This document shows positions 20,796 through 37,535 of a stretch of DNA of 41,547 nucleotides, piece by piece. The stretch's first letter is position 1. Every line of letters begins with the position of its first letter. The DNA comes from a bacterium. Its GTDB lineage: Bacteria; Vulcanimicrobiota; Vulcanimicrobiia; Vulcanimicrobiales; SCRA01. The translations under genes were made by a program, and so were the position numbers. The notes beneath the pieces are model-generated. The model had not been told where the DNA came from. It saw only the letters and a program-made list of their open reading frames with translations, and did not search any database. The stretch spans positions 1 through 41,547 of the forward strand of contig SCRI01000036.1 of the NCBI GenBank assembly GCA_004298675.1. Reading direction: 5' to 3'.

Positions 20796-20818
20796 TTGTT
20801 AAGTAGCCGGCGTACGAT
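20789..20818 (+). promoter_or_regulatory. Putative sigma70-type promoter of HTH-ribBA
   Basis: TTGACA 20789-20794 and TACGAT 20813-20818 with an 18-base spacer. A start point 7-8 bases downstream would fall on or next to the ATG at 20826, giving a leaderless or near-leaderless mRNA. The GGAGG at 20821-20825 directly touches that ATG and is too close to serve as its ribosome-binding site. Confidence 0.5.
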
Positions 20819-20825
20819 GCGGAGG

Positions 20826-22265
20826 ATGGCGACCGAGTTTGCCCGCTCCCTCCGTGAAGCGATGGAGGCTGCCGAACTGACGGCGGCTGCTTTGGCACAG
20901 CGCACCGGCCTGACGGAGGCCGCGATCTCCTACTATCTCTCCGGACGGCGTCAGCCTTCCTATCCTTCGCTGCGTAAGCTGGCGAGTGCCCTGCCGGCTA
21001 TCGCCCCCGCAGCCCCCACCGACGAAAGAAGCCGCATGCATACCATCGAGGAGGCCATCGCCGAGATCCGCGCCGGCAAGATGGTGATCGTGCTCGACGA
21101 CGAGGATCGCGAAAACGAAGGCGACCTCATCATGGCCGCGCAGATGGTGACGCCCGAGGCCGTCAACTTCATGCGTAAGGAGGCCGGTGGGCTGATCTGC
21201 GTCCCGATGATCGGCAAACGCCTGGACGAATTGCAGATCCCCGCCATGGTGAACGACAACACCTCGCTGCACGAAACCGCGTTCACGGTCTCGGTCGAGG
21301 CGCGCGGCCGCACCACGACCGGAATCTCCGCACACGATCGCGCCGCAACGATCCAGACGTTGCTCGATCCCCACGCCAAGCCCTCCGACTTTCTGCGCCC
21401 CGGCCACACCTTTCCGTTGCGCGCGCGCGATGGCGGCGTGTTGGTGCGTGCCGCGCACACGGAGACCGCCGTGGATCTGGCGCGCTTGGCGGGCTTCTAT
21501 CCGGCAGGGGTGGTCTGCGAGATCATGCACGAGGACGGCACGATGGCGCGCCTGCCTCAGCTGGAGGTCTTCGCGGAGCGGCATGGCCTCAAGATCATCA
21601 CGGTGAAGGATTTGATTGCCTACCGGATGCGCAACGAGAAGCTAGTGCATCGCATCGCGGAGTTCGATCTGCCGACGACGTTCGGCCGCTTCCGCGGCGT
21701 GGCGTACGAGACGGCCATCGACGAGGTCTGCCACGTCGCGATGGTGATGGGCGAGATCGGCGACGGAAAAAACGTGTTGGTGCGTGTCCACTCCGAGTGC
21801 CTCACCGGCGATGCTCTGCATTCGATGCGCTGCGATTGCGCCGTCAATCGCGATGCCGCACTCTCGATGATCGCCAAAGAAGGGCGCGGCGTTATGCTCT
21901 ACCTGCATCAGGAAGGGCGCGGCATCGGCCTGGCCAACAAGCTGCGCGCTTATGCGCTGCAGGATCAGGGCATGGACACCGTCGAGGCCAACCGCGCGCT
22001 GGGTTTCCCAGACGACAAGCGCGATTACGGCTTGGGTTCGCAGATGCTGGTGGACCTGGGCATCAAGACGATGCGCATCGTCTCCAACAACCCGCGCAAG
22101 ATCCACGGCTTGGGCGGTTACGGCTTGGAGATCGTCGAGCGGGTGCCGCTCAAGACCGAGCCCACCGTCTTCAATGCGCGCTATCTCGAGACCAAGCGCG
22201 ATAAGTTGGGCCATCTGCTCGACGAGTATAACCAGCCCGCACAGCAAAGCGGGGGTACACGGTGA
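20826..22265 (+). CDS. ribBA: XRE-type HTH fused to bifunctional RibBA (DHBP synthase / GTP cyclohydrolase II)
   Basis: 479 residues. Residues about 5-57 are a Cro/CI helix-turn-helix (LREAMEAAELTAAALAQRTG, SYYLSGRRQPSYPSLRKLA). A short Pro/Ala linker leads to the DHBP synthase domain (about 74-275) with DDEDRENEGDLI and, near residue 210, HTETAVDL. The GTP cyclohydrolase II domain (about 285-470) has VRVHSECLTGDALHSMRCDC, with the zinc Cys residues, and HQEGRGIGLANK. It makes the two riboflavin precursors from ribulose 5-phosphate and GTP. ATG 21036 (Met71) would give a plain RibBA but has only a weak AAGAAG upstream, and the frame is continuous, so a fusion is favoured. The HTH could make it a repressor of its own promoter, where a palindrome lies. 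Confidence 0.9.
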   Translation: MATEFARSLREAMEAAELTAAALAQRTGLTEAAISYYLSGRRQPSYPSLRKLASALPAIAPAAPTDERSRMHTIEEAIAEIRAGKMVIVLDDEDRENEGDLIMAAQMVTPEAVNFMRKEAGGLICVPMIGKRLDELQIPAMVNDNTSLHETAFTVSVEARGRTTTGISAHDRAATIQTLLDPHAKPSDFLRPGHTFPLRARDGGVLVRAAHTETAVDLARLAGFYPAGVVCEIMHEDGTMARLPQLEVFAERHGLKIITVKDLIAYRMRNEKLVHRIAEFDLPTTFGRFRGVAYETAIDEVCHVAMVMGEIGDGKNVLVRVHSECLTGDALHSMRCDCAVNRDAALSMIAKEGRGVMLYLHQEGRGIGLANKLRAYALQDQGMDTVEANRALGFPDDKRDYGLGSQMLVDLGIKTMRIVSNNPRKIHGLGGYGLEIVERVPLKTEPTVFNARYLETKRDKLGHLLDEYNQPAQQSGGTR

Positions 22266-22735
22266 GGCGCGAGCGCGTCGAGCATGCACTGGAGGGCAGC
22301 GGCCGCGGCAAGCGCGTCGCGATCGTCTCGGCGCGCTTCTACGCGGACCTCGCCGATCTGCTGGAAGACGGCGCAGGCCGCGCGCTGATCGCCTCCGGCG
22401 TCTCCGTTGCCGACGTGCACCGCTACCGCGTACCGGGCTGTTTTGAGCTGCCGCTGGCCGCGCAGATGTTGGCTGCGCGCGACTACGACGCCGTGGTAGC
22501 GCTAGGCGTGGTGATTCGCGGTGAGACCCCGCACTTCGACTTCGTGGCGGGAGAGTGCGCGCGCGGCATCATGGACGTCGCGCTGCACACCGGGGTTCCG
22601 ATCGGCTTCGGCGTGCTCACCACCGAAACGCGCGCCCAGGCCGAGGAGCGTGCCGATCCCGAGCGCGGCGACAAGGGCTTCGAGGCGGCCAGCGCCGCAC
22701 TCAGCCTGCTGACGCTGCGGCCTGCGAACGTTTAG
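22262..22735 (+). CDS. ribH: 6,7-dimethyl-8-ribityllumazine synthase
   Basis: 157 residues. RibH joins the RibBA-derived dihydroxybutanone phosphate with the RibD-derived pyrimidine to give lumazine, the RibE substrate. Motifs are VSARFYADLADLLEDGA at the N-terminus, VPGCFELPLAAQML, GVVIRGETPHFDFVAGEC with the catalytic His, and FGVLTTETRAQAEERAD. GTGA overlap with ribBA indicates coupling. Its stop overlaps the stop of the convergent NRDE gene by four bases. Together with ribD, ribE and ribBA the set is complete up to riboflavin; no riboflavin kinase is present here. Confidence 0.95.
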   Translation: MRRERVEHALEGSGRGKRVAIVSARFYADLADLLEDGAGRALIASGVSVADVHRYRVPGCFELPLAAQMLAARDYDAVVALGVVIRGETPHFDFVAGECARGIMDVALHTGVPIGFGVLTTETRAQAEERADPERGDKGFEAASAALSLLTLRPANV

Positions 22736-25547: not shown

Positions 25548-26972
25548 ATGGATAACACCACCTACGCCTCCCCGTTCTCTTGGCGCTACGGGCGCAGCGA
25601 GCTGCGGGCGCTCTTCTCCGAACGCGAGCGCCGTCGCCTGTGGCGCCGCGTCTGGATCGCTCTGGCCGAAGCGCAACGCGACGCGGGCTTGGTCAGCGAC
25701 GCCGAATTGGATGACCTGCGCGCCCATGCCGACGAGATCGACCTGCCCGCCGCTCTGGCTATCGAGCGGGAGATCGGTCACGATCTCATGGCTGAGATTC
25801 GTGTCTTCGCTGCACAGGCGAAAGTCGGCGGCGGGAAACTGCACCTGGGCGCGACCTCGATGGATATCGAGGACAACGTCGAGACCTATCGCATGCGCGT
25901 GGCCGTGGCGCTGCTGGGCGAGCGCCTGCAGGCGCTGCTGCGCGCGTTCGCTGCGGCGATCCGGCGCTACGCCGCCAGCGTCTGCATGGCATTCACGCAT
26001 CTGCAGCCTGCCGAGCCAACGACGATCGGCTACCGCTTGGCGGTCTACGCGCAGGATCTACTGATCGACGACGAGGGCCTGCGGAACCTCTTGGAGCGTT
26101 TGACCGCGAAGGGCATGCGCGGGGCGGTAGGAACCTCGGCCTCCTACGCGGCGTTGCTGGCGGGCACGCGGATGTCGCCGCAGGAGCAGGAGGAGAAGAT
26201 CCTCGCGGCCTTCGATCTGCGCGCACGCGACGTGGCCACGCAGACCTATCCACGCAAGCTCGACTATCTCGTGCTCTCCACGCTCGCGGGCCTGGGCGCG
26301 TCGCTCTCGAAATTCGCCGCCGACGTGCGTATCCTGAGCGCGCCGGGCTTCGGCGAGATGTTTGAGCCGTTCGGGCGCAAGCAAGTGGGCAGCTCGGCGA
26401 TGCCGTTCAAGCGCAACCCCGTCATGGCGGAGCGCATCGACTCGCTGGCGCGCCTCTTGCCCGGTTATGCCGGCACGGCCTGGCAGAACGCCGCCACCAA
26501 CTACCTCGAGCGTACGTTGGACGACTCGGCCAACCGCCGTACCACGTTGCCCGAAGCCGTGCTCTGCAGCGACGAGATCCTGGGACTGGCGCTGCGCATC
26601 GTCGAGGGGCTGCGTATCGACGAAGCGCGCGTGCGGGAGAACTTGCGGCGCTTTGGACCGTTCGCCGGTTCGGAGGCGGTGATGATGGCGGCCTCCAAGG
26701 CCGGCGGAGACCGTCAGGAGCTGCACGAAGTGCTGCGCGAGGCGGCGATGGTGGCGTGGGAGGCCACCGCGCGCGGCGAGAGCAATCCGCTCGCAAACCT
26801 CTTGGCCGACGATCCACGCATCACGCGCTGGCTCGATCCCGCCGAGATCCGCAGACACATGGACCCGAGCACGCACGTCGGCGACGCCGCCGAGCGCGCC
26901 CTACGTGTGGCGGAGCGCATCGAGGCGCTGCCGCCGTTTCCGCAACCGCAACCGAGAGAGATGACCATATGA
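25548..26972 (+). CDS. purB: Adenylosuccinate lyase
   Basis: PurB cleaves SAICAR to AICAR and adenylosuccinate to AMP. 474 residues. Landmarks are LGATSMDIEDNVETYRMR, FTHLQPAEPTTIGYR (catalytic His region) and the family signature GSSAMPFKRNPVMAE (flexible catalytic loop with Ser). It opens the purine operon; the next gene overlaps by ATGA. It supplies AICAR, the substrate of the two PurP proteins encoded at the operon's end. Confidence 0.95.
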   Translation: MDNTTYASPFSWRYGRSELRALFSERERRRLWRRVWIALAEAQRDAGLVSDAELDDLRAHADEIDLPAALAIEREIGHDLMAEIRVFAAQAKVGGGKLHLGATSMDIEDNVETYRMRVAVALLGERLQALLRAFAAAIRRYAASVCMAFTHLQPAEPTTIGYRLAVYAQDLLIDDEGLRNLLERLTAKGMRGAVGTSASYAALLAGTRMSPQEQEEKILAAFDLRARDVATQTYPRKLDYLVLSTLAGLGASLSKFAADVRILSAPGFGEMFEPFGRKQVGSSAMPFKRNPVMAERIDSLARLLPGYAGTAWQNAATNYLERTLDDSANRRTTLPEAVLCSDEILGLALRIVEGLRIDEARVRENLRRFGPFAGSEAVMMAASKAGGDRQELHEVLREAAMVAWEATARGESNPLANLLADDPRITRWLDPAEIRRHMDPSTHVGDAAERALRVAERIEALPPFPQPQPREMTI

Positions 26973-28240
26973 AAAAGGGCCGGCAAGTCGCCCACGGCAA
27001 GACCAAGGCGCTCTACGAGCATCCGGATCAGGCGGGGCTCTACATCGTGACCTCGGGTGACGACATCACCGCGGGCGACGGTGCACGCCACGCCGTCATC
27101 CCGGGCAAGGGGCGCATCGCGGCGAAGACGACCTCGCGCGTTTTCCGCATGCTCAATTTGTGCGGCTTGCCGACGCACTTCGTCAGCGGCGGCGAGGACG
27201 ACGACGACAACGAGATGGTGGTGCGCGCCTGCGGCATGATCCCGCTGGAAGTGGTGGTGCGTGGCGTGGCGGCCGGCTCGTACGCCAAGCGCTTCCCCGC
27301 GCTGGCACGCGGCTCGCTGTTGTTGCCGCGGGTGATCGAGTTCTTCTTGAAGGACGATGCGCGCCACGATCCGCAGATCAGCCAGGACGAGATCGTGGCG
27401 CAGGGGATCGCCAGCGCGGAAGAAGTTGCGACGATGGCGGAGATCGCGCGCCTGACCTACGAGATACTCTCGCACGCGTGGCGGCGGCGTAACGTGCTCA
27501 TGGTGGACATGAAGGTGGAGTTCGGCCGCGCGCTGGAGGACAAGCGCCTCTTGCTCGCGGACGTCATCGACAACGACGCCTGGCGCCTGTGGCCGCAAGG
27601 ACGCGAGGAGTTGATGCTGGACAAGCAGATCTTCCGTAACATCGTCGGCGAGCCGACGGCGGAGGATCTGGCGCGCGTGAAGCAGGCCTACGAATCGGTC
27701 TGCGAGCAGGTAGCGGGTTTCCCCGTGATGCAGCCGGCCATGGTGGCGATCGTGATGGCTTCCGAGGGCGAGCGGCCGCACGCCGAGCGCATCGAGCGCG
27801 CGCTGCAGAATCTCGGCGTGGGCCTGGTGCACCGCGTCGCCAGCGCCCAGAAGACGCCGGGATATCTGCTACAGCTGATTCAACAGACCGATGCCACGTT
27901 CTCGCGGTTGGTCTACATCGGAGTCTGCGGACGCAACGATACGTTGACGGGCATGCTCGACGCCTCGACCACCAATCCCGTGATCGCTTGCCCGCCGCCG
28001 TCCACGGAGCATGGCGGCCTGGACGTGCTGAGCGCGCTGCGCACGCCCGGAGGCGTGGCGAGCGTGACGGTTCTGGAGCCCGAGAATGCGGCGCTGGCCG
28101 CGGCCAAGCTGCTGGCGCTCGACGACACCGTCTTCTACGGGCGCGTGCTCTTGACGCAGGCGAACTATCGCGCCCAGGTGATGAACGCCGACATCGCTCT
28201 CAACAGCCAACCGCCGCAACAGCGGCCCGTGGTGGCGTAG
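26969..28240 (+). CDS. purC: PAICS-like fusion: SAICAR synthetase (PurC) plus PurE-type AIR carboxylase
   Basis: 423 residues, nearly the length of animal PAICS. PurC domain about 1-245: AHGKTKALYE, DDITAGDGARH, GMIPLEVVVRGVAAGSYAKR, FFLKDDARHDPQ, LADVIDNDAWRLWP. PurE domain about 255-415: MVAIVMASEGERPHAERIE, VASAQKTPG, IGVCGRNDTLTGML, VIACPPPS. The domain order, the KDDARHDPQ segment and the A/C-G-R-N replacing bacterial AGGAAH point to a class II (animal-like) carboxylase that needs no PurK. Odd points: the usual MGSxSD reads MASEGE and SAHK reads SAQK, so the PurE half may be altered or inactive. It makes SAICAR for PurB. Confidence 0.88.
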   Translation: MKKGRQVAHGKTKALYEHPDQAGLYIVTSGDDITAGDGARHAVIPGKGRIAAKTTSRVFRMLNLCGLPTHFVSGGEDDDDNEMVVRACGMIPLEVVVRGVAAGSYAKRFPALARGSLLLPRVIEFFLKDDARHDPQISQDEIVAQGIASAEEVATMAEIARLTYEILSHAWRRRNVLMVDMKVEFGRALEDKRLLLADVIDNDAWRLWPQGREELMLDKQIFRNIVGEPTAEDLARVKQAYESVCEQVAGFPVMQPAMVAIVMASEGERPHAERIERALQNLGVGLVHRVASAQKTPGYLLQLIQQTDATFSRLVYIGVCGRNDTLTGMLDASTTNPVIACPPPSTEHGGLDVLSALRTPGGVASVTVLEPENAALAAAKLLALDDTVFYGRVLLTQANYRAQVMNADIALNSQPPQQRPVVA

Positions 28241-28250
28241 AGAGCCTTCA

Positions 28251-30494
28251 ATGCTGGCGCTGAGCACCTCAGAGCTCGACCGAATCTCCGCGCTGATCGG
28301 CCGCGAGCCGACGTTGGTGGAGCTGTACGCGTTCGACGCCGGTTGGAGCGAGCATTGCTCCTATAAGTCCAGCCGCGCGCATCTGCGGCGCCTGCCCACC
28401 GAGGGCGCCGCGGTGCTGTTGGGGGTAGGCGAGGACGCCGGGGTCCTCGATCTTGGCGAAGTCGACGGCGTGCGTTACGGCGTGGTGGTGGCGCACGAGT
28501 CGCACAATCATCCCTCGCAAGTGGTGCCTTATGAAGGCGCGGCTACCGGCATCGGCGGGATCGTGCGCGACGTGCTCTGCATGGGCGGCACGCTGATCGG
28601 ACTGCTGGACCCGCTGCGCTTCGGGCGCGGGGATCTGGAAGGATACCCGCATCAGCGCTACGTGGCGCAGAGCGTGGTGGACGGCATCAGCGGCTACGGC
28701 AACGCCATCGGGGTCCCCAATCTCGGCGGCGATCTCTACTGGGACGAGTCGTTCGACGACAACTGCTTGGTCAACGTGGTGGCGTTGGGCTTGGTGCGGG
28801 CAGATGAAATCGTGCACTCGCGCGTCCCGGCGCACGCCGATGGCTGGAACCTCGTGCTGGTAGGCAAAGCCACGGATGCGTCGGGCTTCGGCGGCGCCGC
28901 CTTCTCGTCGCTGACGCTGGACGAGGAGCAGGCGGAGGCCAACAAGGGCGCCGTGCAGGTGCCCGATCCGTTCCTCAAGAGCGTGCTGATGCGGGCGACG
29001 TATCGTGTGCTGCGCGAGCTGCGGGCACTGGGCGTGCGCGACCCCGGCTTCAAGGACCTGGGCGCGGGCGGCGTGCTGGGCTGTTCGGCAGAGCTGGTGG
29101 CCGCGGGGGACATGGGCGCGGAGATCGACCTCGATGCGGTGCATGTCTCCGTGGAGGAGCTGCCCGCCGAAGTGATCGCTACCGGCGAGACGCAGGAACG
29201 CATGCTGTGGGCGGTTCCCGCCGGTGCCGCGACCCAGGCGTTGCTGCGCGTCTACAACGAGCAGTTTGGGTTGCCGCATGTCTCGCGCGGCGCGCGTGCC
29301 GCGGTGATCGGACGCGTGCGCGCGGACAAGCGCTACGTGATGCGCCGCCACGGCACCGTGGTGGTGGACGTGCCCGTCGACGTGCTGACCAGCGGCATCC
29401 GCTACGAGCGCGAAGTGGGCGTGGCGCCCAACCATGAGAGCGCCGATCCCGTGCTGCGCGGCGAGGTGGCGGCGTTGCTGCCGCGCGTGCTAGCGCACCG
29501 GGACGTCTGCTCGCGCGAGCCCTTGATCACGCACTACGATCGCGTGGTGCGCGGCACGACCGTGATTCCCGCGGGCCATGGTGACGCGGGGGTGATCGCG
29601 CCGATTCCAGGTTCGGCTCTCGGCGTCGCGGTCAGTGTCGACGGCAATCCGCGCTATGGGAAGCTGAACGCGCGCGTGGCCGGGGAGCTGGCTGTGTGCG
29701 AGTCCGTGCGCAATGTGGCGGCCGTGGGCGGCGAGGCGATCGGATTGACCGACTGCCTGAATTTTGGCGATCCCACCAAGCCGGCGCAGATGGGAGAGCT
29801 GGTGGAGGCGATCGAGGGCATCGGCGAGGCGGCGCGCGCGCTTTCCCTGCCGTACGTGAGCGGCAATGTCTCGCTCTATAACGAGAGCGCCTCCGGCTCG
29901 AGCGTGGCGCCCTCGCCCATCATCGCCTGCGTGGGCCGCGTGACCGACATCTCGCACAGCGCCGGCTTCGCGTTCAAGCGTCCGGATTCGGCGATCGTGC
30001 TGCTGGGCGCGCGCGGCGGCGCGCTGGGAGGCAGCGTGATCGTGGAGATCTGCGCGGGCCAAGGCGGCACGTTGCCGCGGGTGAACTTCGACGCGTTGCG
30101 CGGGGAGCTGTCCGCGTTGCGCGCTGGCTTCGACGATCTGACGGTGCGTGGCGCTCACGACGTCTCGGACGGCGGGCTGCTGGCTTGCGTGGCGGAGATG
30201 TGCATCGGTCCCGGCGGCCGCAACGGCATCGGTGCGCGACTGGATGCCCCCTCAGGCTGGGCTCCGGAGGTGCCGGAGCTGGCGGCGTGGTTCGGCGAGA
30301 CGGGCGGTTTTGTGGTGGAGGTGGCCGCGGAGTCCGCCGCGGCGTTCGTCGAGCGCGCGCGCGCTACCGGTGCGTATGCGGCCTGCATCGGCCGCACGCT
30401 GCCGGAGCCGTCGCTCGTTGCCGGCGCGACGACGTTTGCACTTGCCGACCTCGCCTCCGCCTGGCTGACCCCCCTCGAGGCCCTCTATGCCTAG
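28251..30494 (+). CDS. purL: Phosphoribosylformylglycinamidine synthase, small PurL subunit
   Basis: 747 residues, the size of the small PurL that needs separate PurQ and PurS. It converts FGAR to FGAM with ATP and ammonia. Landmarks are DAGWSEHCSYKSS with catalytic His35, VVAHESHNHPSQVVPYEGAATGIGG, FKDLGAGGVLGC in the first half, and NPRYGKLNA, TDCLNFGDPTKP and VSGNVSLYNES in the second AIRS-like half. Ten bases separate it from the PAICS-like gene and fifteen from purQ. The short length explains why a PurS-like partner is needed. Confidence 0.95.
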   Translation: MLALSTSELDRISALIGREPTLVELYAFDAGWSEHCSYKSSRAHLRRLPTEGAAVLLGVGEDAGVLDLGEVDGVRYGVVVAHESHNHPSQVVPYEGAATGIGGIVRDVLCMGGTLIGLLDPLRFGRGDLEGYPHQRYVAQSVVDGISGYGNAIGVPNLGGDLYWDESFDDNCLVNVVALGLVRADEIVHSRVPAHADGWNLVLVGKATDASGFGGAAFSSLTLDEEQAEANKGAVQVPDPFLKSVLMRATYRVLRELRALGVRDPGFKDLGAGGVLGCSAELVAAGDMGAEIDLDAVHVSVEELPAEVIATGETQERMLWAVPAGAATQALLRVYNEQFGLPHVSRGARAAVIGRVRADKRYVMRRHGTVVVDVPVDVLTSGIRYEREVGVAPNHESADPVLRGEVAALLPRVLAHRDVCSREPLITHYDRVVRGTTVIPAGHGDAGVIAPIPGSALGVAVSVDGNPRYGKLNARVAGELAVCESVRNVAAVGGEAIGLTDCLNFGDPTKPAQMGELVEAIEGIGEAARALSLPYVSGNVSLYNESASGSSVAPSPIIACVGRVTDISHSAGFAFKRPDSAIVLLGARGGALGGSVIVEICAGQGGTLPRVNFDALRGELSALRAGFDDLTVRGAHDVSDGGLLACVAEMCIGPGGRNGIGARLDAPSGWAPEVPELAAWFGETGGFVVEVAAESAAAFVERARATGAYAACIGRTLPEPSLVAGATTFALADLASAWLTPLEALYA

Positions 30495-30509: not shown

Positions 30510-31265
30510 ATGAAGACCGCCGTCATCGTTTTTCCGGGCTCGAACTCCGAAGAGGAGACGTTGCGCGCGGCCCAGGCCGCGGGCGCCGACGCGCGCCTGG
30601 TCTGGTGGTTCGAAGGCCGCGCAGCGCTCAAGGGTTTCGAGGCGTTCATCCTTCCCGGCGGCTTTGCACACGAGGACCGCATCCGCGCAGGCGCCGTGGC
30701 GGCACGCGATCCGATCGTCTCTGCCGTAATCGATGCGGCGCAGCACGGCGCGCCCGTGCTGGGGATCTGCAACGGAGCGCAGATACTCGTGGAGACCGGT
30801 CTGGTTCCCGGCACCGGGGAGGCTGGCCGGCCCCAGGCCGCCCTGGCGCCGAACATCCAAGGGCACTACCTCGACCACTTCGCCGAGATCGAGCTGGCCG
30901 TCTCCCCGGAGCGCTGTATCTTCACGCGGCATCTCGCAGCGGGCGCGCGCATCCCGGCCTGGGCCAGCCACGGCGAAGGGCGCTTCCGCTTCCGCGATGA
31001 GCGCACGCGTGAGCGCGTGCGCGAAGAGCGGCTGGTGGTCTTCACCTACGTCGGCGGTGCCCCCAACGGCGCGGAGTTCGACTGCGCGGCGTTGACCAAC
31101 CCCACCGGCAACGTCTTGGCCGTCATGCCGCATCCCGAGCGCGCGGGTTGGCGTTACCAGCAGCCGGAACGCGTGCGCTTCGAGGCGCGCGGCGACCGGG
31201 CGGCCTATCTCGCACCGTACGGCGGCAGCCACCTCTTCTCGCTCTTCGCGCAGGTGCTGGCATGA
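30510..31265 (+). CDS. purQ: FGAM synthase glutaminase subunit
   Basis: PurQ releases ammonia from glutamine for PurL. 251 residues of a class I glutamine amidotransferase: nucleophile Cys87 in GICNGAQ, and the His/Glu of the triad in AVMPHPERAGWR. N-terminal VIVFPGSNSEEE and ILPGGFAHEDRIRAG match PurQ. GGAGGAAG lies upstream of the ATG. It overlaps the PurS-like gene by ATGA. Confidence 0.95.
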   Translation: MKTAVIVFPGSNSEEETLRAAQAAGADARLVWWFEGRAALKGFEAFILPGGFAHEDRIRAGAVAARDPIVSAVIDAAQHGAPVLGICNGAQILVETGLVPGTGEAGRPQAALAPNIQGHYLDHFAEIELAVSPERCIFTRHLAAGARIPAWASHGEGRFRFRDERTRERVREERLVVFTYVGGAPNGAEFDCAALTNPTGNVLAVMPHPERAGWRYQQPERVRFEARGDRAAYLAPYGGSHLFSLFAQVLA

Positions 31266-31711
31266 GTCTGGTAGCCGTCGCTATCGAATTGAAGATACCC
31301 GATAATACCGCGTTCACGGCGTACGATGCGCTGCTTTCCATGGGGTTGGACGAGTTAGGCGACATCAAGCGCAGCGATGTGTGGATCGTAGAGGCCGACG
31401 CGCTGCCGGCGGAGATTACGCATGCGATCCGGCGCACGGAGTTGATCTTCAACCCCAACAAGCACATGCTGCGCATGCTAAATTCCGACCGCCCGGCGAG
31501 CGGTGAGATCTGGGTAGCCGTACCCGGCCGCACCTACGAGCGCGAGCGGCGTCTGCTCGAGCAGGCCGGACTGCGAGCGGTGCGCAGCGTCGAAGCGTGC
31601 ACACGCTGGCTGCTGCTCGACAAGCGCGGTGCCCCGTGCAGCCGGGCGGTCCTAGAGCGGGCGCGAGACCTGCTGGCGAACCCGGCCTACCAGGACGCCT
31701 TGATCGCATAG
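31262..31711 (+). CDS. purS: PurS-like protein, apparently two PurS units in tandem
   Basis: 149 residues, against about 80 for ordinary PurS. The first half, VAVAIELKIPDNTAFTAYDA then LLSMGLDELGDIKRSDVWIVE, has the strand-helix-strand pattern and the A-L-x-S-M-G and D-I motifs of PurS. The second half repeats that order: EIWVAVPGR, YERERRLLEQAGL, AVRSVEACTRWLLLD, then VLERARDLLANPAYQDALIA. The last resembles the PurS C-terminal helix with its L-L-A-N-P-x-x-x-x-x ending. PurS dimers bridge PurL and PurQ in the FGAM synthase complex, so this looks like a covalent dimer. Position and overlap with purQ support the call. No other function fits better. Confidence 0.75.
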   Translation: MSLVAVAIELKIPDNTAFTAYDALLSMGLDELGDIKRSDVWIVEADALPAEITHAIRRTELIFNPNKHMLRMLNSDRPASGEIWVAVPGRTYERERRLLEQAGLRAVRSVEACTRWLLLDKRGAPCSRAVLERARDLLANPAYQDALIA

Positions 31712-31724
31712 CGAACAGGCGCGG

Positions 31725-32795
31725 ATGATGCTTTCCCCTCGCATTGCGGGACGCGCCGCTCAACAGCGTCCCGGAGAGTTTTATACCATTGCGACGCTCG
31801 GCAGCCACTCGGCGCTGCAGATTCTCAAGGGCGCGCATGATGAAGATTTCCGGACACTGGCCATCGCCAACGACGAAACGGCCAACCTCTACCGTTCGTT
31901 TTCGTTCGTGGACGAAGTCATCCAGATCGCCAAGTACGAAGATTTTCCGCAGCTCATGCACGAGCTCGAGCAGCGTAAGCTGATCATCGTGCCGCACGGC
32001 TCGTTTGTCGCGTACCTCTCGCTCGACGAGCACAAGAAGATGCGCACACCCTACTTCGGCAACAAGGCCGTGCTCGACTGGGAAGCCTCGCGCGAATTGC
32101 AGCGGCAGTGGCTCCAGCGTGCCGGGTTGAAGCTGCCGCGCCAGTTCAAGACGGGGGCGGAGATCGATCGCCCGGTCATTGTGAAGTTTTACGGAGCGCA
32201 GGGCGGCAAGGGCTATCTGTTCCTCAAAGACGCGCACGATTTCGAAGAGAAGGCGGCGCTCCTGGCGCGCCGCAACTACATCCTGCAAGAATACATCATC
32301 GGCGTGCCGCTCTATATCCACTACTTCTACTCGCCCTTGACCGGCAAGCTCGAGATCATGAGTATGGACCGGCGCTATGAGACCAACGTCGATTCGATCG
32401 GCCGCATCCCCGCCGTGGCGCAGAGCACGATGGACGTCTCGCCGTCGTACGTGGTGGTGGGTAACTCCCCGGTCTCGTTGCGCGAGTCGATGCTGGCGGA
32501 GGCATACCGCATGGGTGAGGAAGTGGTGCGCGTGAGCCGGGAGATCTGTCCGCCCAAGGGACTCTTCGGCGCCTTCTGTTTGGAGACGATCATCACGCCG
32601 GAGGCCGAATTCTATCTCATGGAGATCTCCGCCCGTATCGTCGCGGGGACCAATCTCTTCATCGACGGCTCTCCGTACTCGTATCTGAACTACGACGAGC
32701 CGATGTCGACCGGGCGGCGCATTGCTCGCGAGATCAAGAACGCGCTGCTCTCCAACTCGCTGGAGATGGTGCTCGACGACTCCGCGCTGGCGTGA
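31725..32795 (+). CDS. purP: PurP-type formate-dependent FAICAR synthetase (ATP-grasp), copy 1
   Basis: 356 residues, the archaeal PurP length. The family ligates formate to AICAR with ATP, giving FAICAR, in place of the folate-dependent transformylase of PurH. N-terminal domain: IATLGSHSALQILKGAHDE and IIVPHGSFVAYLSLDEH. ATP-grasp core: VIVKFYGAQGGKGYLF (about 146-161) and ILQEYIIGVPLYIHYFYSPL. C-terminal domain: MSMDRRYETNVDSIGRIPA, FLMEISARIVAGTN-like metal site (here YLMEISARIVAGTN), and SPYSYLNYDEPMSTGRRIAREI. The residues align closely with what I know of Methanocaldococcus PurP. ATG 31725 and 31728 are both possible. It overlaps the second copy by GTGA. Seen here in a bacterial pur operon directly after PurS. 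Confidence 0.9.
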   Translation: MMLSPRIAGRAAQQRPGEFYTIATLGSHSALQILKGAHDEDFRTLAIANDETANLYRSFSFVDEVIQIAKYEDFPQLMHELEQRKLIIVPHGSFVAYLSLDEHKKMRTPYFGNKAVLDWEASRELQRQWLQRAGLKLPRQFKTGAEIDRPVIVKFYGAQGGKGYLFLKDAHDFEEKAALLARRNYILQEYIIGVPLYIHYFYSPLTGKLEIMSMDRRYETNVDSIGRIPAVAQSTMDVSPSYVVVGNSPVSLRESMLAEAYRMGEEVVRVSREICPPKGLFGAFCLETIITPEAEFYLMEISARIVAGTNLFIDGSPYSYLNYDEPMSTGRRIAREIKNALLSNSLEMVLDDSALA

Positions 32796-33931
32796 TGTTC
32801 GACGTCGCCGCGGCGCTAGCCGGATACGATCTCGAGCGTCTGACGCTGGCGTGCGTGGGATCGCACTCCGCCCTCGACGTGTGCGCGGGTGCGCGCAAAG
32901 TGGGTCTGCGTAACCTCGTGATCACCGCGGCGGGCAGAGAGCAGACGTACGCGCGCCACTTCGCGGTGCGCGGCGACGGACGCGAGCACCGCGGCTGCGT
33001 CGACGAGACCCTGCAAGTCCAGCGCTTTCCGGATCTGCTGAAGCCGGAGGTGCAGGAGCAGCTGCTGCGCCGCAACGTGATCTTCGTCCCCAACCGCTCC
33101 TTTGAGGTCTACCTGCACCAGCGTTACTCCTACGACGAGATCGAACGCGGCATGCGCGTGCCGTTTTTCGGCAGCCGCACGCTGCTGCGGGCCGAGGAGC
33201 GCGGCGAGGACTCGAATCAGTACGCGCTGCTGGAGCAGGCTGGGATCCCGTACCCGCGGCAGTTCGAGCACCCCGATCGTATCGACCGCCTGGTGATGGT
33301 GAAGGCGCCGCACGCCAAAGTGAGCTTTGAGCGCGCGTTCTTTCTCTGCAGCTCGCGGGCCGAGTACGACGCGCAGGCGCAGCGGCTCAAGCTGGCCGGC
33401 GTCTTGAACGACGAAGGCCTGGCGGGGGCGGTGATCGAGGAGTTCGCACTCGGACCGACGGTCAATCTCAACTTTTTCCGCTCCAAGGTACTGGGCGAAC
33501 TGGAGCTGATCGGCACCGATACGCGCAGGCAGACCAATCTCGACGGGGTGCGCGCGCTCCTCGCGGAGCAGCAGGCGTGGCTGGGTTCGACACCGGTGAA
33601 GATGGAGGAGGCGGGGCACATTGCCACCACGCTCACGGAGTCGATGCTGGAGCGGGCGTACGACCTCGGCGAGCGTTTCGTGCGCGCCGCCGACGCCGCG
33701 TTTGCGCCGGGCATCATCGGACCCTTCGCGCTGCAGTGCGCGATCGTCTCGGGGCCGCCTAAGGACTTCGTCGTCTTTGACGTCTCGCTGCGCATTCCGG
33801 GCTCGCCTGGGACGCGCTACACGCCGTACTCGGCCTACTTGTGGGGGCGCGACATCGCCGTTGGGGAGCGCATCGCGATGGAGGTCGCGTGGGCGCGCGA
33901 GCAGCAACGCCTGCCCGACGTCCTGACGTAA
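32792..33931 (+). CDS. PurP paralogue, copy 2 (ATP-grasp)
   Basis: About 379 residues from GTG 32792 (ATG 32795 is equally possible). Same architecture as copy 1: LACVGSHSALDVCAGARKV, VIFVPNRSFEVYLHQR, MVKAPHAKVSFERAFFL, VIEEFALGPTVNLNFFRS, LIGTDTRRQTNLDG and GPFALQCAI. Several sites differ from copy 1: HGSF becomes NRSF, the ATP-loop GAQGGKGY becomes HAKVSFER, HYFYSPL becomes NFFRSKV, and the EMSAR-like metal motif becomes DVSLRIPGSPG. In some archaea a PurP2 paralogue of this kind accompanies PurP1. It may be a regulatory or complex partner, or an enzyme with changed substrate. Inferred from family knowledge only. Confidence 0.8.
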   Translation: MMFDVAAALAGYDLERLTLACVGSHSALDVCAGARKVGLRNLVITAAGREQTYARHFAVRGDGREHRGCVDETLQVQRFPDLLKPEVQEQLLRRNVIFVPNRSFEVYLHQRYSYDEIERGMRVPFFGSRTLLRAEERGEDSNQYALLEQAGIPYPRQFEHPDRIDRLVMVKAPHAKVSFERAFFLCSSRAEYDAQAQRLKLAGVLNDEGLAGAVIEEFALGPTVNLNFFRSKVLGELELIGTDTRRQTNLDGVRALLAEQQAWLGSTPVKMEEAGHIATTLTESMLERAYDLGERFVRAADAAFAPGIIGPFALQCAIVSGPPKDFVVFDVSLRIPGSPGTRYTPYSAYLWGRDIAVGERIAMEVAWAREQQRLPDVLT

Positions 33932-33968
33932 CGGAACGCCGCAGCCTGCGCGAACGTTGAGCGCGAAG

Positions 33969-36900
33969 ATGATCGAGACCAAGGTGCTCGTCCCGGCCTT
34001 GGGAGCGGCCTTTGTGCCCCGTCCGCGTCTGGAGACGCTGGGCGATCGTCTGCTGGAAGTCCCGCTGGCGCTCGTGACGGGCGGCGGGGGCTTTGGGAAA
34101 TCGACCGTGCTGTGCTCCTGGGCGGCGCGCGTGCATGCGTGCGCGCGCGTGGCTTGGCTCTCGCTCGAGCAGCAGGATGCCTCGCCCAGCGCCCTGGTGG
34201 AAGGCGTCGCCTGCGCTTTGCGCCGCGCGCTGCCCGAGCTCGGGGAGTCGGTGGAACGGTTGCTCGAGGACGGCGGTGCCGGGCCGGACGCCTTCGTTGC
34301 GCCGCTGGTGAACGAGCTCTACGCGCTCACCGAGGATCGCAGCGAAGAGGTCGTGCTCTTTCTCGACGATGTACAGTTCGTCTCCGGCGACGCGGAGTGT
34401 CTGGCCTTCCTCTCCGGCTTCCTGCGCGCGCTCCCGCCGCGCGTTCACGCGGCGCTGGCGTCACGCCGTGTGTTGACGTTCTCGCCGGTGGCGAAGCTGC
34501 GCGCCGCGGGGCGCCTGCTCGAAGTCGGCGAGGGTGAGCTGCGCTTCCGCGCGGACGAAGCCGCACCGCTCGTCGACGATGCACAGGCGGCCCATGCGCT
34601 GGTGGAGCGTACCGAGGGTTGGGCCATGGCGGTGCAGCTCACGGCGAGTTTGGGGCGCGATCGCGCGGGCAATAAGCCCGGAACCGCACTGCCGTCGCGC
34701 GAGGCGTTGTTCGAGTTCTTGGCGGAGGAGGTCATCGCCAGGCACCCCGCGACGTTACGCGGCGACCTCTACGCGCTGGCCCTTGCGCCGGTGATCGACG
34801 AGGTCACTGCATGCGAGCTGCTGGAGCGTTCCGACGGCGCGGCAACGCTCGAGGCCATCGCCGCCCGGGGGCTCTATCTGACGCGCGTCGACGCGCAGAC
34901 CTGGCGCTTCCATCAGTTGTTCCGGGAGTTTCTGCTGGCGCGCTTCCGGCGCGAGGAGCCCGAGCGCGAGCGCTCGCTGCGCAAACGCTACGCCGCGGCC
35001 TTGCGTCAAGGCGGCCGCAAGCTGGAGGCGTTGGGGCAGCTCATCGACGCCGGCGAATACCTGGAGATCGTCGACCTCGCCCAAGAGGCGCTGATCACGA
35101 TCCGCTTCTCCGATCGTTACCGGCAGATGCTGCACCTGCTGGCACAGGTTCCGGAGGCGGTCAAGCACGAGCGCCCCATGCTCTACCGTCTCTATGCGAT
35201 GGCGCTGCAGCGGAGCGGTGCTGCTTCTGAAGCGGGGAGGCAACTCGAGCGTTGCTACGCCGCGGCCATCGATATCGCGGACTATGCTACGGCCTGCAAA
35301 GCGCAACTCGAGTTGGGCCTGTATGCCGACCAGTTCCGCTTCCAGGGACACGGAGACTTCCGCAGGAGCCTCGCACATTTCAACCTGGCGTTCGAGATTG
35401 CGCAGCGTCCGGAAGTCGCGCAACGCCCGCTCTATCGAAAACTTGCGCACTGGCTGTTGGGCATGTCGCACGCCGCGCGCTTCGAGTATGACGAGGCTCT
35501 CCGCCACCTCGGTGTGGCGGAGGAGTTGGAGCGCGACGTGGAGCGCCACTCGAATTTGATTTTGGTCGATATCGCGCTGGTGCACGGCTGGCGCGGAGAT
35601 TGGCGCCGCGCCTTGGCGTACGCCGAGTTGGCCGAGGAGCTGTTTCGCACGGGCTCCGGTGAGCTCCATCTGGGCCATGCACTGGCCATGCAGGTGCGCG
35701 CCCACCTCTTCTTGCGAGAGGACCTTGCGCGGGTCGCCCAACTCGCGCGCGCGGCGTTCGATGCTTTTAAGACCGCGCAGCAGGACGAAGAGCTGGCGGG
35801 TGCGGCGTGCCTGGCGGGTGCGTGCGCGCTGGCGCAGACGCCCCCCGATATCGAAGCCGCCCTTGCCGCCGCCGATGACGCGGAGCGGCGGCTGGCGGCG
35901 CTGCCCAATCCGTCGGTGCGCTTCGATGCGGTCTTGCTGCGTGCCGAGGCGGCCATCGTCGCCGGCCGTCATGACGATGCCCGCCGCGCGTTGGACGAGG
36001 CGGCGACGGTGGCCGCGGCCAACGGCGACCGCCTCCAGCAGGCCATCGGCGTGCTCACGCGTGGGATCGCCGAGCTTGCGGCAAAGCATGAACGCGAGGC
36101 GCGCTCCCACTTCGACCAGGCGCGCCACGCCTTCCACGGCTTGCGGGATCGCTTCCGCGAGCTGGTTGCGGAGCTAGCGCACACGGCCTGCCGTATCCGT
36201 GACGGAGATGTGGAGCAGGAGGAGATCGGGTCGTTGCTGGCGCGGATCGAAGCCGAGCATCTCGGCTTCGCGGCGGCGACGACGCCCCGTTCGACGGCCG
36301 CCGTGCTCACGTGGTGTCTGGAAAACGGCTATCGGCTCGAGCATGCCGAGCGCGTGCTAGGCCCGTACGTGGCCGGCCATGTGGAGGGCATCGCTCGCGT
36401 TGCCGGCGACGAGCGCATGCAGCCGGCCGCGCGTGCCGCGGCGATCCGCGTGTTGGCACGCGTGGACGCGCTCGAGCAGCGGCCGCTGTTTGCGCGCCTC
36501 ACGCGCGATCGCGACCGGCTGGTGGCGGGGGCCGCGGAGGCGGTGGCCGGCATGCTGCCGGCCGGCGGCGTGCCGGCACTGGCGGTAGCCGTGGCCGGTA
36601 CGCTGCGCGTCAGCCTGGGAGAAGAACGCTTCGACGAGCATGCTGGCCGCTGGACGCGCAAGAAGGCCGTCGAGCTGCTGCGGCTCTTGGCGATCGCAGG
36701 CGGCGCAGTGACGAAGAGCGCGGCGCTGGAGGCGCTCTGGCCCGAAGCCGCCGGCAACGTGGAGACGTCGCTGCGGGTCACGCTGCACGCGCTGCGGCGA
36801 ACGCTGCAGCCCGGCAGCGACGGAGCCGGCGATTACGTGGAATACGACGGCTCGTACGTGCGTCTGCGGCGCGCCGCCAGCGCACCCAGCGACGTGGCGC

Positions 36901-37535
36901 TAGCCGAGCAGGCGCTCAAGCGCGGCCAGTATCTCGCTGCGCGCGGAGAGCTCGATGCCGCGCGGGCGGAACTCGAGCGCGTGGCGGTCCTGCTCAAAGA
37001 CGTGCCGGGCGAGGATGGTGCGCCGGCCTGGATGCGGCCCCACATCCGGCGCTGGCGCGAGTGGCTCGCGGAGGGATTGCGCGCGCGCGGCGCCCTCGAG
37101 CGTCAGGCGGGAGATGTGGACGGCGCGATGTCGGCCCTCACCGCCGCGCTTGCCGTCGATCCACTCGACGAGGAGAGCCTCTGCGCCGCGCTCGATCTGC
37201 TCCTGGAGCGCGGCGACGTCGAACGCGGGCGCAATCTCTTCCTGACGTACAAACAGCGCTTGGCCGAGGAGCTTGCGCTCACGCCGGGGCCCGATGCGCT
37301 GGAGCGTTATTCGAAGATCTTGGCCCGGCGCGCCGGCCCGCTGCGGGAGGCGCTCACGCCACGGGAGCTGGATATCTTGCGCTTGGTGGCGCGTGGCAAG
37401 GCCAATAAAGAGATCGCGGCGGCCTTGGGCATCGGCCTCGGCACGGTGGGCGGCGCGCTGACCAAGATCATGCGCAAGCTCAAGGTCGAGAGCCGGGCCG
37501 CCGCCGTGGCGGTGGCTGGGGGCCTGCTCCAGTAA
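33969..37535 (+). CDS. MalT-like STAND ATPase regulator with SARP-type wHTH and C-terminal LuxR HTH
   Basis: About 1188 residues. N-terminal LVPALGAAFVPRPRLE and Walker A GGGGFGKST (about 38-46), with Walker B-like VVLFLDDVQFV near 125-135 and a LuxR/MalT-type NTPase up to about 330. A TPR-like helical region runs to about 870. Next is a winged-helix/BTAD unit (wHTH about 880-967, WTRKKAVELLRLLA and ALEALWPEAAGNVETSLRVT; BTAD helices about 970-1115). The end (about 1128-1188) is a LuxR HTH, LTPRELDILRLVARGKANKE; the usual TVKxH segment reads TVGGA. Two DNA-binding units in one protein are unusual. It follows purP2 by 37 bases and precedes two lipoprotein genes, the likely targets. TTG 33957 is an alternative start. 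Confidence 0.88.
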   Translation: MIETKVLVPALGAAFVPRPRLETLGDRLLEVPLALVTGGGGFGKSTVLCSWAARVHACARVAWLSLEQQDASPSALVEGVACALRRALPELGESVERLLEDGGAGPDAFVAPLVNELYALTEDRSEEVVLFLDDVQFVSGDAECLAFLSGFLRALPPRVHAALASRRVLTFSPVAKLRAAGRLLEVGEGELRFRADEAAPLVDDAQAAHALVERTEGWAMAVQLTASLGRDRAGNKPGTALPSREALFEFLAEEVIARHPATLRGDLYALALAPVIDEVTACELLERSDGAATLEAIAARGLYLTRVDAQTWRFHQLFREFLLARFRREEPERERSLRKRYAAALRQGGRKLEALGQLIDAGEYLEIVDLAQEALITIRFSDRYRQMLHLLAQVPEAVKHERPMLYRLYAMALQRSGAASEAGRQLERCYAAAIDIADYATACKAQLELGLYADQFRFQGHGDFRRSLAHFNLAFEIAQRPEVAQRPLYRKLAHWLLGMSHAARFEYDEALRHLGVAEELERDVERHSNLILVDIALVHGWRGDWRRALAYAELAEELFRTGSGELHLGHALAMQVRAHLFLREDLARVAQLARAAFDAFKTAQQDEELAGAACLAGACALAQTPPDIEAALAAADDAERRLAALPNPSVRFDAVLLRAEAAIVAGRHDDARRALDEAATVAAANGDRLQQAIGVLTRGIAELAAKHEREARSHFDQARHAFHGLRDRFRELVAELAHTACRIRDGDVEQEEIGSLLARIEAEHLGFAAATTPRSTAAVLTWCLENGYRLEHAERVLGPYVAGHVEGIARVAGDERMQPAARAAAIRVLARVDALEQRPLFARLTRDRDRLVAGAAEAVAGMLPAGGVPALAVAVAGTLRVSLGEERFDEHAGRWTRKKAVELLRLLAIAGGAVTKSAALEALWPEAAGNVETSLRVTLHALRRTLQPGSDGAGDYVEYDGSYVRLRRAASAPSDVALAEQALKRGQYLAARGELDAARAELERVAVLLKDVPGEDGAPAWMRPHIRRWREWLAEGLRARGALERQAGDVDGAMSALTAALAVDPLDEESLCAALDLLLERGDVERGRNLFLTYKQRLAEELALTPGPDALERYSKILARRAGPLREALTPRELDILRLVARGKANKEIAAALGIGLGTVGGALTKIMRKLKVESRAAAVAVAGGLLQ

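Follow-up and report, generated by a model that had tools for sequence, protein, structure and literature searches.

An archaeal-type PurP pair of clusters I and II in the purine operon of Eremiobacterota that also encode PurH

The window, which is the whole stretch of DNA that was analysed (41,547 nucleotides), carries a bacterial purine operon of the order purB-purC/E-purL-purQ-purS-like, and the 3' end of this operon is formed on the same strand by two paralogous purP genes at 31725-33931. A preliminary description had placed two PurP paralogues at the close of the operon, and both open reading frames were found at these coordinates with PurP domains and matches to solved PurP structures. 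The features are as follows.

25548..26972, + strand, purB (TIGR00928 over cut-off)
26966..28240, + strand, purC-purE fusion, SAICAR synthetase plus AIR carboxylase domain (PF01259 and PF00731)
28251..30494, + strand, purL, small type (TIGR01736 and NF002290 over cut-off)
30510..31265, + strand, purQ (TIGR01737 over cut-off)
31262..31711, + strand, purS-like gene, 149 aa; product predicted to be a tandem PurS (fused dimer), its modelled fold matching FGAM synthetase; ATGA overlap with purQ
31725..32795, + strand, purP copy 1, 356 aa, cluster I (Ib-like) PurP, predicted formate- and ATP-dependent AICAR formyltransferase
32184..32219, + strand, ATP-loop region of copy 1, KFYGAQGGKGYL, residues 154-165, 11-residue loop
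32792..33931, + strand, purP copy 2, 379 aa, cluster II PurP-like paralogue, start at GTG 32792 or ATG 32795
33302..33349, + strand, altered loop of copy 2, KAPHAKVSFERAFFLC, residues 171-186, two residues longer than that of copy 1

Domains DUF1246 and DUF1297 occur in this order in both copies at scores far over the Pfam cut-offs (135 and 226 bits, and 119 and 176 bits, for DUF1246/DUF1297 in the two copies), and both proteins are members of the PurP family when membership is taken as both domains, in order, over curated cut-offs. The junction between the genes reads GCGTGATG, with a GTGATG overlap in which the start of copy 2 overlaps the TGA stop of copy 1. Scores against the NCBIfam formate--phosphoribosylaminoimidazolecarboxamide ligase models (PRK13278 series) lay below the cut-offs for copy 1 (best 381 bits, cut-off 580) and for copy 2 (best 233 bits, cut-off 556); these models appear to fit single archaeal lineages, and NCBIfam names were not taken as proof of function.

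The order of the operon is conserved across the class, and in many genomes unrelated genes are inserted between the two purP copies, varying by locus and including putative cytochrome bd genes and a gene for a conserved protein some 370 aa long; no conserved extra or non-purine partner gene was seen between or beside the copies in the class loci examined. Median identity to the window among ten class genomes was 79% for copy 1, 68% for purB, 67% for copy 2, 60% for PurH, 55% for purL, 55% for purC-E, 49% for purQ, and 38% for the purS-like protein. Copy 1 is the best-conserved protein of the operon, which is not what one would expect of a redundant relic.

Several neighbouring genes were also inspected. 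The frame at 31262-31711 has no PF02700 match, its orthologues in one family of the class (f3) score about 22 bits on this model, at the cut-off, and the class genomes tested yielded no canonical PurS. The predicted structure of the 149-aa PurS-like protein (pLDDT 97) consists of two fused beta-alpha-beta-alpha-beta halves that match part of the large FGAM synthetases, and its mid-region has a conserved FNPNKH motif. The PurC-PurE fusion is 424 aa long, homologous frames recur across the class, and the order of PurC followed by PurE is that of animal PAICS. A 1192-aa LuxR/BTAD-type regulator (33957-37535) starts within 26 bases of the end of copy 2; the same regulator follows the pair in one locus of the same genus (L032) and was absent from the other class loci examined.

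The two copies were assigned using the residues published in a 2011 survey of archaeal purine genes, in which cluster I has Asn at M. jannaschii position 258 together with a P-loop, cluster II always has His at 258 and a loop two residues longer, and both clusters retain the residues in contact with the formyl group, His27 and Arg314 (PMC3261824). Among 253 aligned sequences, Asn258 went with the 11-residue loop in 153/153 and His258 with the 13-residue loop in 99/99, and one row had Pro. Copy 1 matched P. furiosus PF1517 (E=1e-100, 52% identity) and M. jannaschii PurP (MJ0136; 1e-86, 43% identity) among solved PurP structures. By direct alignment it keeps H27, S94, N258, S266, R314, and the GAQGGKGY loop, and so bears the residue marks of cluster I (Asn258, a (K/R)GG(K/R)G-type P-loop, H27, S94, S266, R314), with the qualification that Q takes the first position of its loop, for which the published consensus gives K or R. 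Every hallmark motif that had been quoted for copy 1 was located in its translation, and every published AICAR- or formyl-contact residue that was examined is retained.

Copy 2 matched M. jannaschii PurP at 1e-54, and its predicted fold (mean pLDDT 92.8) has a TM-score of 0.92-0.93 to that protein, normalised by target. It has His at position 258, a 13-residue loop with ER.FF, and mostly lost P-loop glycines, which are the marks of cluster II; the formyl contacts H27 and R314 and the phosphate serines are retained, and the carboxamide contact is His. The set fixed in cluster II comprises, in copy 2 numbering, E180, R181, F183, N225, N227, Q247, H276, and D330, the ATP-grasp lysine K171 is also retained in the cluster, and ten positions are fixed to differing residues between clusters I and II. 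The ER.FF loop and the active-site set of copy 2 are fixed across bacteria and archaea. The altered ATP and metal motifs that had been ascribed to copy 2 are real changes, but they are the fixed alternative set of the whole archaeal and bacterial cluster II; because the split in loop length and residue 258 holds cluster-wide, the loop and metal-site differences are a trait of the family. A decaying copy was ruled out, with the motifs fixed over 99 sequences and conservation equal to that of purB.

In a tree with archaeal members, of the kind that the preliminary description had called for, the split between clusters I and II was fully supported, copy 1 fell inside cluster I and copy 2 inside cluster II, and both nested among archaeal, DPANN, and Peregrinibacteria sequences. 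By residue 258, loop length, and tree, the copies correspond to an archaeal PurP1/PurP2-type pair, as had been proposed. A single clade of Eremiobacterota and Peregrinibacteria was not rejected for cluster I (p 0.32) and was weakly rejected for cluster II (p 0.03). From the grouping of both copies with archaeal sequences we infer horizontal transfer, probably of the two genes as one unit.

The genome (3.03 Mb, 98.5% complete) was searched for purH, and one AICAR transformylase match was found (E=2e-88), which is a 523-aa PurH with both domains (574 bits against a cut-off of 402, NF002049). Key catalytic residues of both PurH halves are conserved in 19/19 class PurH sequences, which rules out that PurH is a relic with a decayed transformylase half. 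A divergent PurN-like transformylase is also present in the same genome, canonical PurT was not found in the class genomes tested, and formate-THF ligase was absent in 21 of the 22 class genomes tested. The proposal that PurP serves instead of the folate route is not supported, in view of a complete PurH with intact catalytic residues, the presence of PurH in 109 of the 117 class genomes, and the divergent PurN; one half of what had been named in advance as evidence against that proposal, a complete purH elsewhere in the genome, was found. Replacement of PurH by PurP in an M. jannaschii-like organisation, which would call for a genome without a PurH1 domain, is ruled out by the completeness and conservation of PurH, so that the archaeal pair must add a route or serve a second function.

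As a separate observation, the Asn of the KHxNPCG motif, which adjoins the catalytic Lys-His of PurH1, is replaced by Val, Ile, or Leu in 19/19 class PurH sequences, including that of the present genome (G000:C34:20231-21196, L001), and is retained in the other lineages tested. Upstream in the window and on the same strand (20796-22735) lie ribH and a RibB/RibA fusion with an N-terminal helix-turn-helix domain. The RibB and RibA reactions of riboflavin synthesis both release formate, and these genes are a possible formate source.

Gene inventories were based on family searches, and class counts were taken from genome tables. The class, whose phylum was recognised from named relatives as Candidatus Eremiobacterota, comprises three families and 117 genomes, with PurP in 111; at least two copies recur in 106 genomes, which places the pair far beyond chance. 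Six class genomes have no PurP match, and in five of them the neighbouring purS-like gene is absent as well; in these five the PurP locus is probably unassembled, because this neighbour is missing too, and for the same reason the view of PurP-less members as natural knock-outs is not supported for 5/6. Across the rest of the phylum, a PurP match was found in 1/32 genomes (G146, of another class), as a single copy that looks like archaeal contamination, judged from its gene neighbours by reading.

Pairs also occur elsewhere. PurP was over the cut-off in 12 genomes of a Patescibacteria sample (145 genomes), always as a pair (12/12), and most Peregrinibacteria loci carry purH directly upstream of the two genes; Woesearchaeota likewise carry pairs, most with a PurH-family gene. 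In Thermoproteota (61 genomes), PurP was found in 53, about 49 of them with pairs. In a set of 36 genomes from archaea and bacteria that bear the pair or are related to its bearers, 30 gave PurH-family matches and 2 gave PurO. Four Thermoproteota (G240, G202, G185, and G243; L198-L201) have a cluster II protein of about 460-490 aa and no cluster I match. The gene of G243 lies inside a purine cluster (purC, purF, purS, purL, purQ, purB) and that of G240 beside purC and purM, the names purF and purM resting partly on our reading. With about 94% of its genome read, G243 had no PurO, cluster I, PurN, or canonical PurT match, and its PurH is encoded by two open reading frames. Cluster II thus occurs in a purine cluster of a genome that has PurH but no cluster I match, and is therefore, at least there, independent of cluster I and not superfluous beside PurH. 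PurP has been called exclusive to archaea (PMC4177761), and no report of PurP pairs in these bacteria was found in the literature searched, which included few subscription papers.

The nearest characterised relative of copy 1 is PF1517 (cluster Ib; structures 2r84-2r87), with which it shares the P-loop, Asn258, and the substrate contacts; PF1517 comes from an archaeon without identified purO or purH2, whereas copy 1 belongs to an operon of a bacterium that encodes a complete PurH at another locus. MJ0136 (cluster Ia), a characterised FAICAR synthetase, has the same fold family and substrate contacts, but occurs singly, without cluster II, in an organism that closes the ring with PurO (PMC3261824). 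Archaeal cluster II proteins such as PF0421 and AF0256 resemble copy 2 in His258, in a loop two residues longer, and in pairing with cluster I; Eremiobacterota cluster II has GSPGT, whereas some crenarchaeal forms keep GGGTN. The Methanosarcinales show the same apparent redundancy, with PurH and typically two PurP-like genes (PMC3261824), but they are archaea and the operon setting differs. In Peregrinibacteria and DPANN Woesearchaeota the cluster I and II genes are neighbours, most with a PurH-family gene, as in Eremiobacterota, although these pairs fall in separate clades.

These data are best accounted for, with a probability of roughly 0.55 for the account as a whole, by an acquired pair that works beside PurH. 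The ancestor of the Eremiobacterota class would have gained a cluster I and cluster II pair, which became fixed in the purine operon on top of a complete PurH. Copy 1 would work alongside PurH1, probably as a formate:AICAR ligase: ATP would activate formate for the conversion of AICAR to FAICAR, so that the PurH1 domain is bypassed without folate, and the PurH2 domain would then close the ring from FAICAR to IMP. PurT beside PurN in E. coli offers an analogy (PMC3261824). Formate freed inside the cell could feed such a ligase, nearly all class genomes tested being without formate-THF ligase. Copy 2, in which the fold, the phosphate site, and the formyl contacts are preserved, is best read as a catalytically distinct purine enzyme or partner that would act at the same pathway stage, and its conserved distinct active site favours the second use of the paralogue that had been offered as an alternative. 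The chief caution is that PF1517, the nearest characterised relative of copy 1, was reported to be inactive as an AICAR formyltransferase (PMC3261824). A further point against this account is that, with PurH and PurN present, the pair is unneeded on paper. The alternatives below partly concern copy 2, and their probabilities hence overlap with that of the main reading.

A more specific proposition, put forward tentatively, is that cluster II PurP as a family may be an unrecognised purine enzyme with its own active site (ER.FF loop, His258, and the Asn-Asn-Gln-Asp set) in bacteria and archaea, acting at a step at or after AICAR, possibly as the missing crenarchaeal IMP cyclohydrolase. A role for copy 2 as GAR formyltransferase was considered and is not favoured, because PurN matches were obtained from the class, from the tested Woesearchaeota, and from the majority of the Peregrinibacteria tested; a caveat is that G243, which has cluster II only, gave no PurN match in the roughly 94% of its genome that was read.

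It is unlikely, though in keeping with strict pairing, adjacency, and the start-stop overlap, that copy 2 has no catalysis of its own and serves copy 1 as an obligate partner, with a hetero-oligomer as the active form. The published inactivity of PF1517 and of PF0421, each assayed singly, would then be accounted for (PMC3261824), but cluster II occurs without a cluster I match in G240, G202, G185, and G243, within a purine cluster in at least G240 and G243, and its active-site positions are fixed to other residues with no drift. Similarly doubtful is a pair that no longer formylates AICAR and instead converts a purine intermediate into some other nucleotide, formylated or ligated, for instance when folate or ZMP stress sets in. 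The presence of complete PurH and of PurN in the same genomes, the ten positions fixed differently between the clusters, and the reported inactivity of PF1517 as an AICAR formyltransferase (PMC3261824) would fit such a role; copy 1, however, has every published AICAR and formyl contact tested, and the flanks of the pair offer no conserved non-purine gene. Lower in probability is an IMP cyclohydrolase function for copy 2, by which the pair would form a complete folate-free module from AICAR to IMP parallel to PurH. Such a function was suggested for archaea, the pair-bearing crenarchaea being without purO and purH2 (PMC3261824), and it agrees with the H27, R314, and phosphate serines of copy 2, its loss of ATP-loop glycines, the His at the carboxamide contact, and the retention of cluster II in pairs in Patescibacteria and Thermoproteota. 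However, the PurH2 domain is intact in the PurH sequences examined from pair-bearing bacteria, the cluster II-only archaeon G243 also has PurH, and K171 and the acidic D330 of copy 2 would be odd for a cyclohydrolase. That the pair is a redundant leftover of gene transfer and now serves no purpose, which the completeness of PurH might suggest, is very improbable and was already disfavoured, with copy 1 topping the conservation of the operon, copy 2 equalling purB, and the pair present throughout the class.

The full archaeal PurP pair is thus a fixed feature of one bacterial class and is met again in Peregrinibacteria, usually in genomes that encode PurH too, and the simple view in which PurP replaces PurH falls for these organisms. 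If cluster II is a purine enzyme in its own right, the Eremiobacterota pair would be a second, folate-free route beside PurH. The question of cluster II PurP function becomes directly testable in bacterial proteins.
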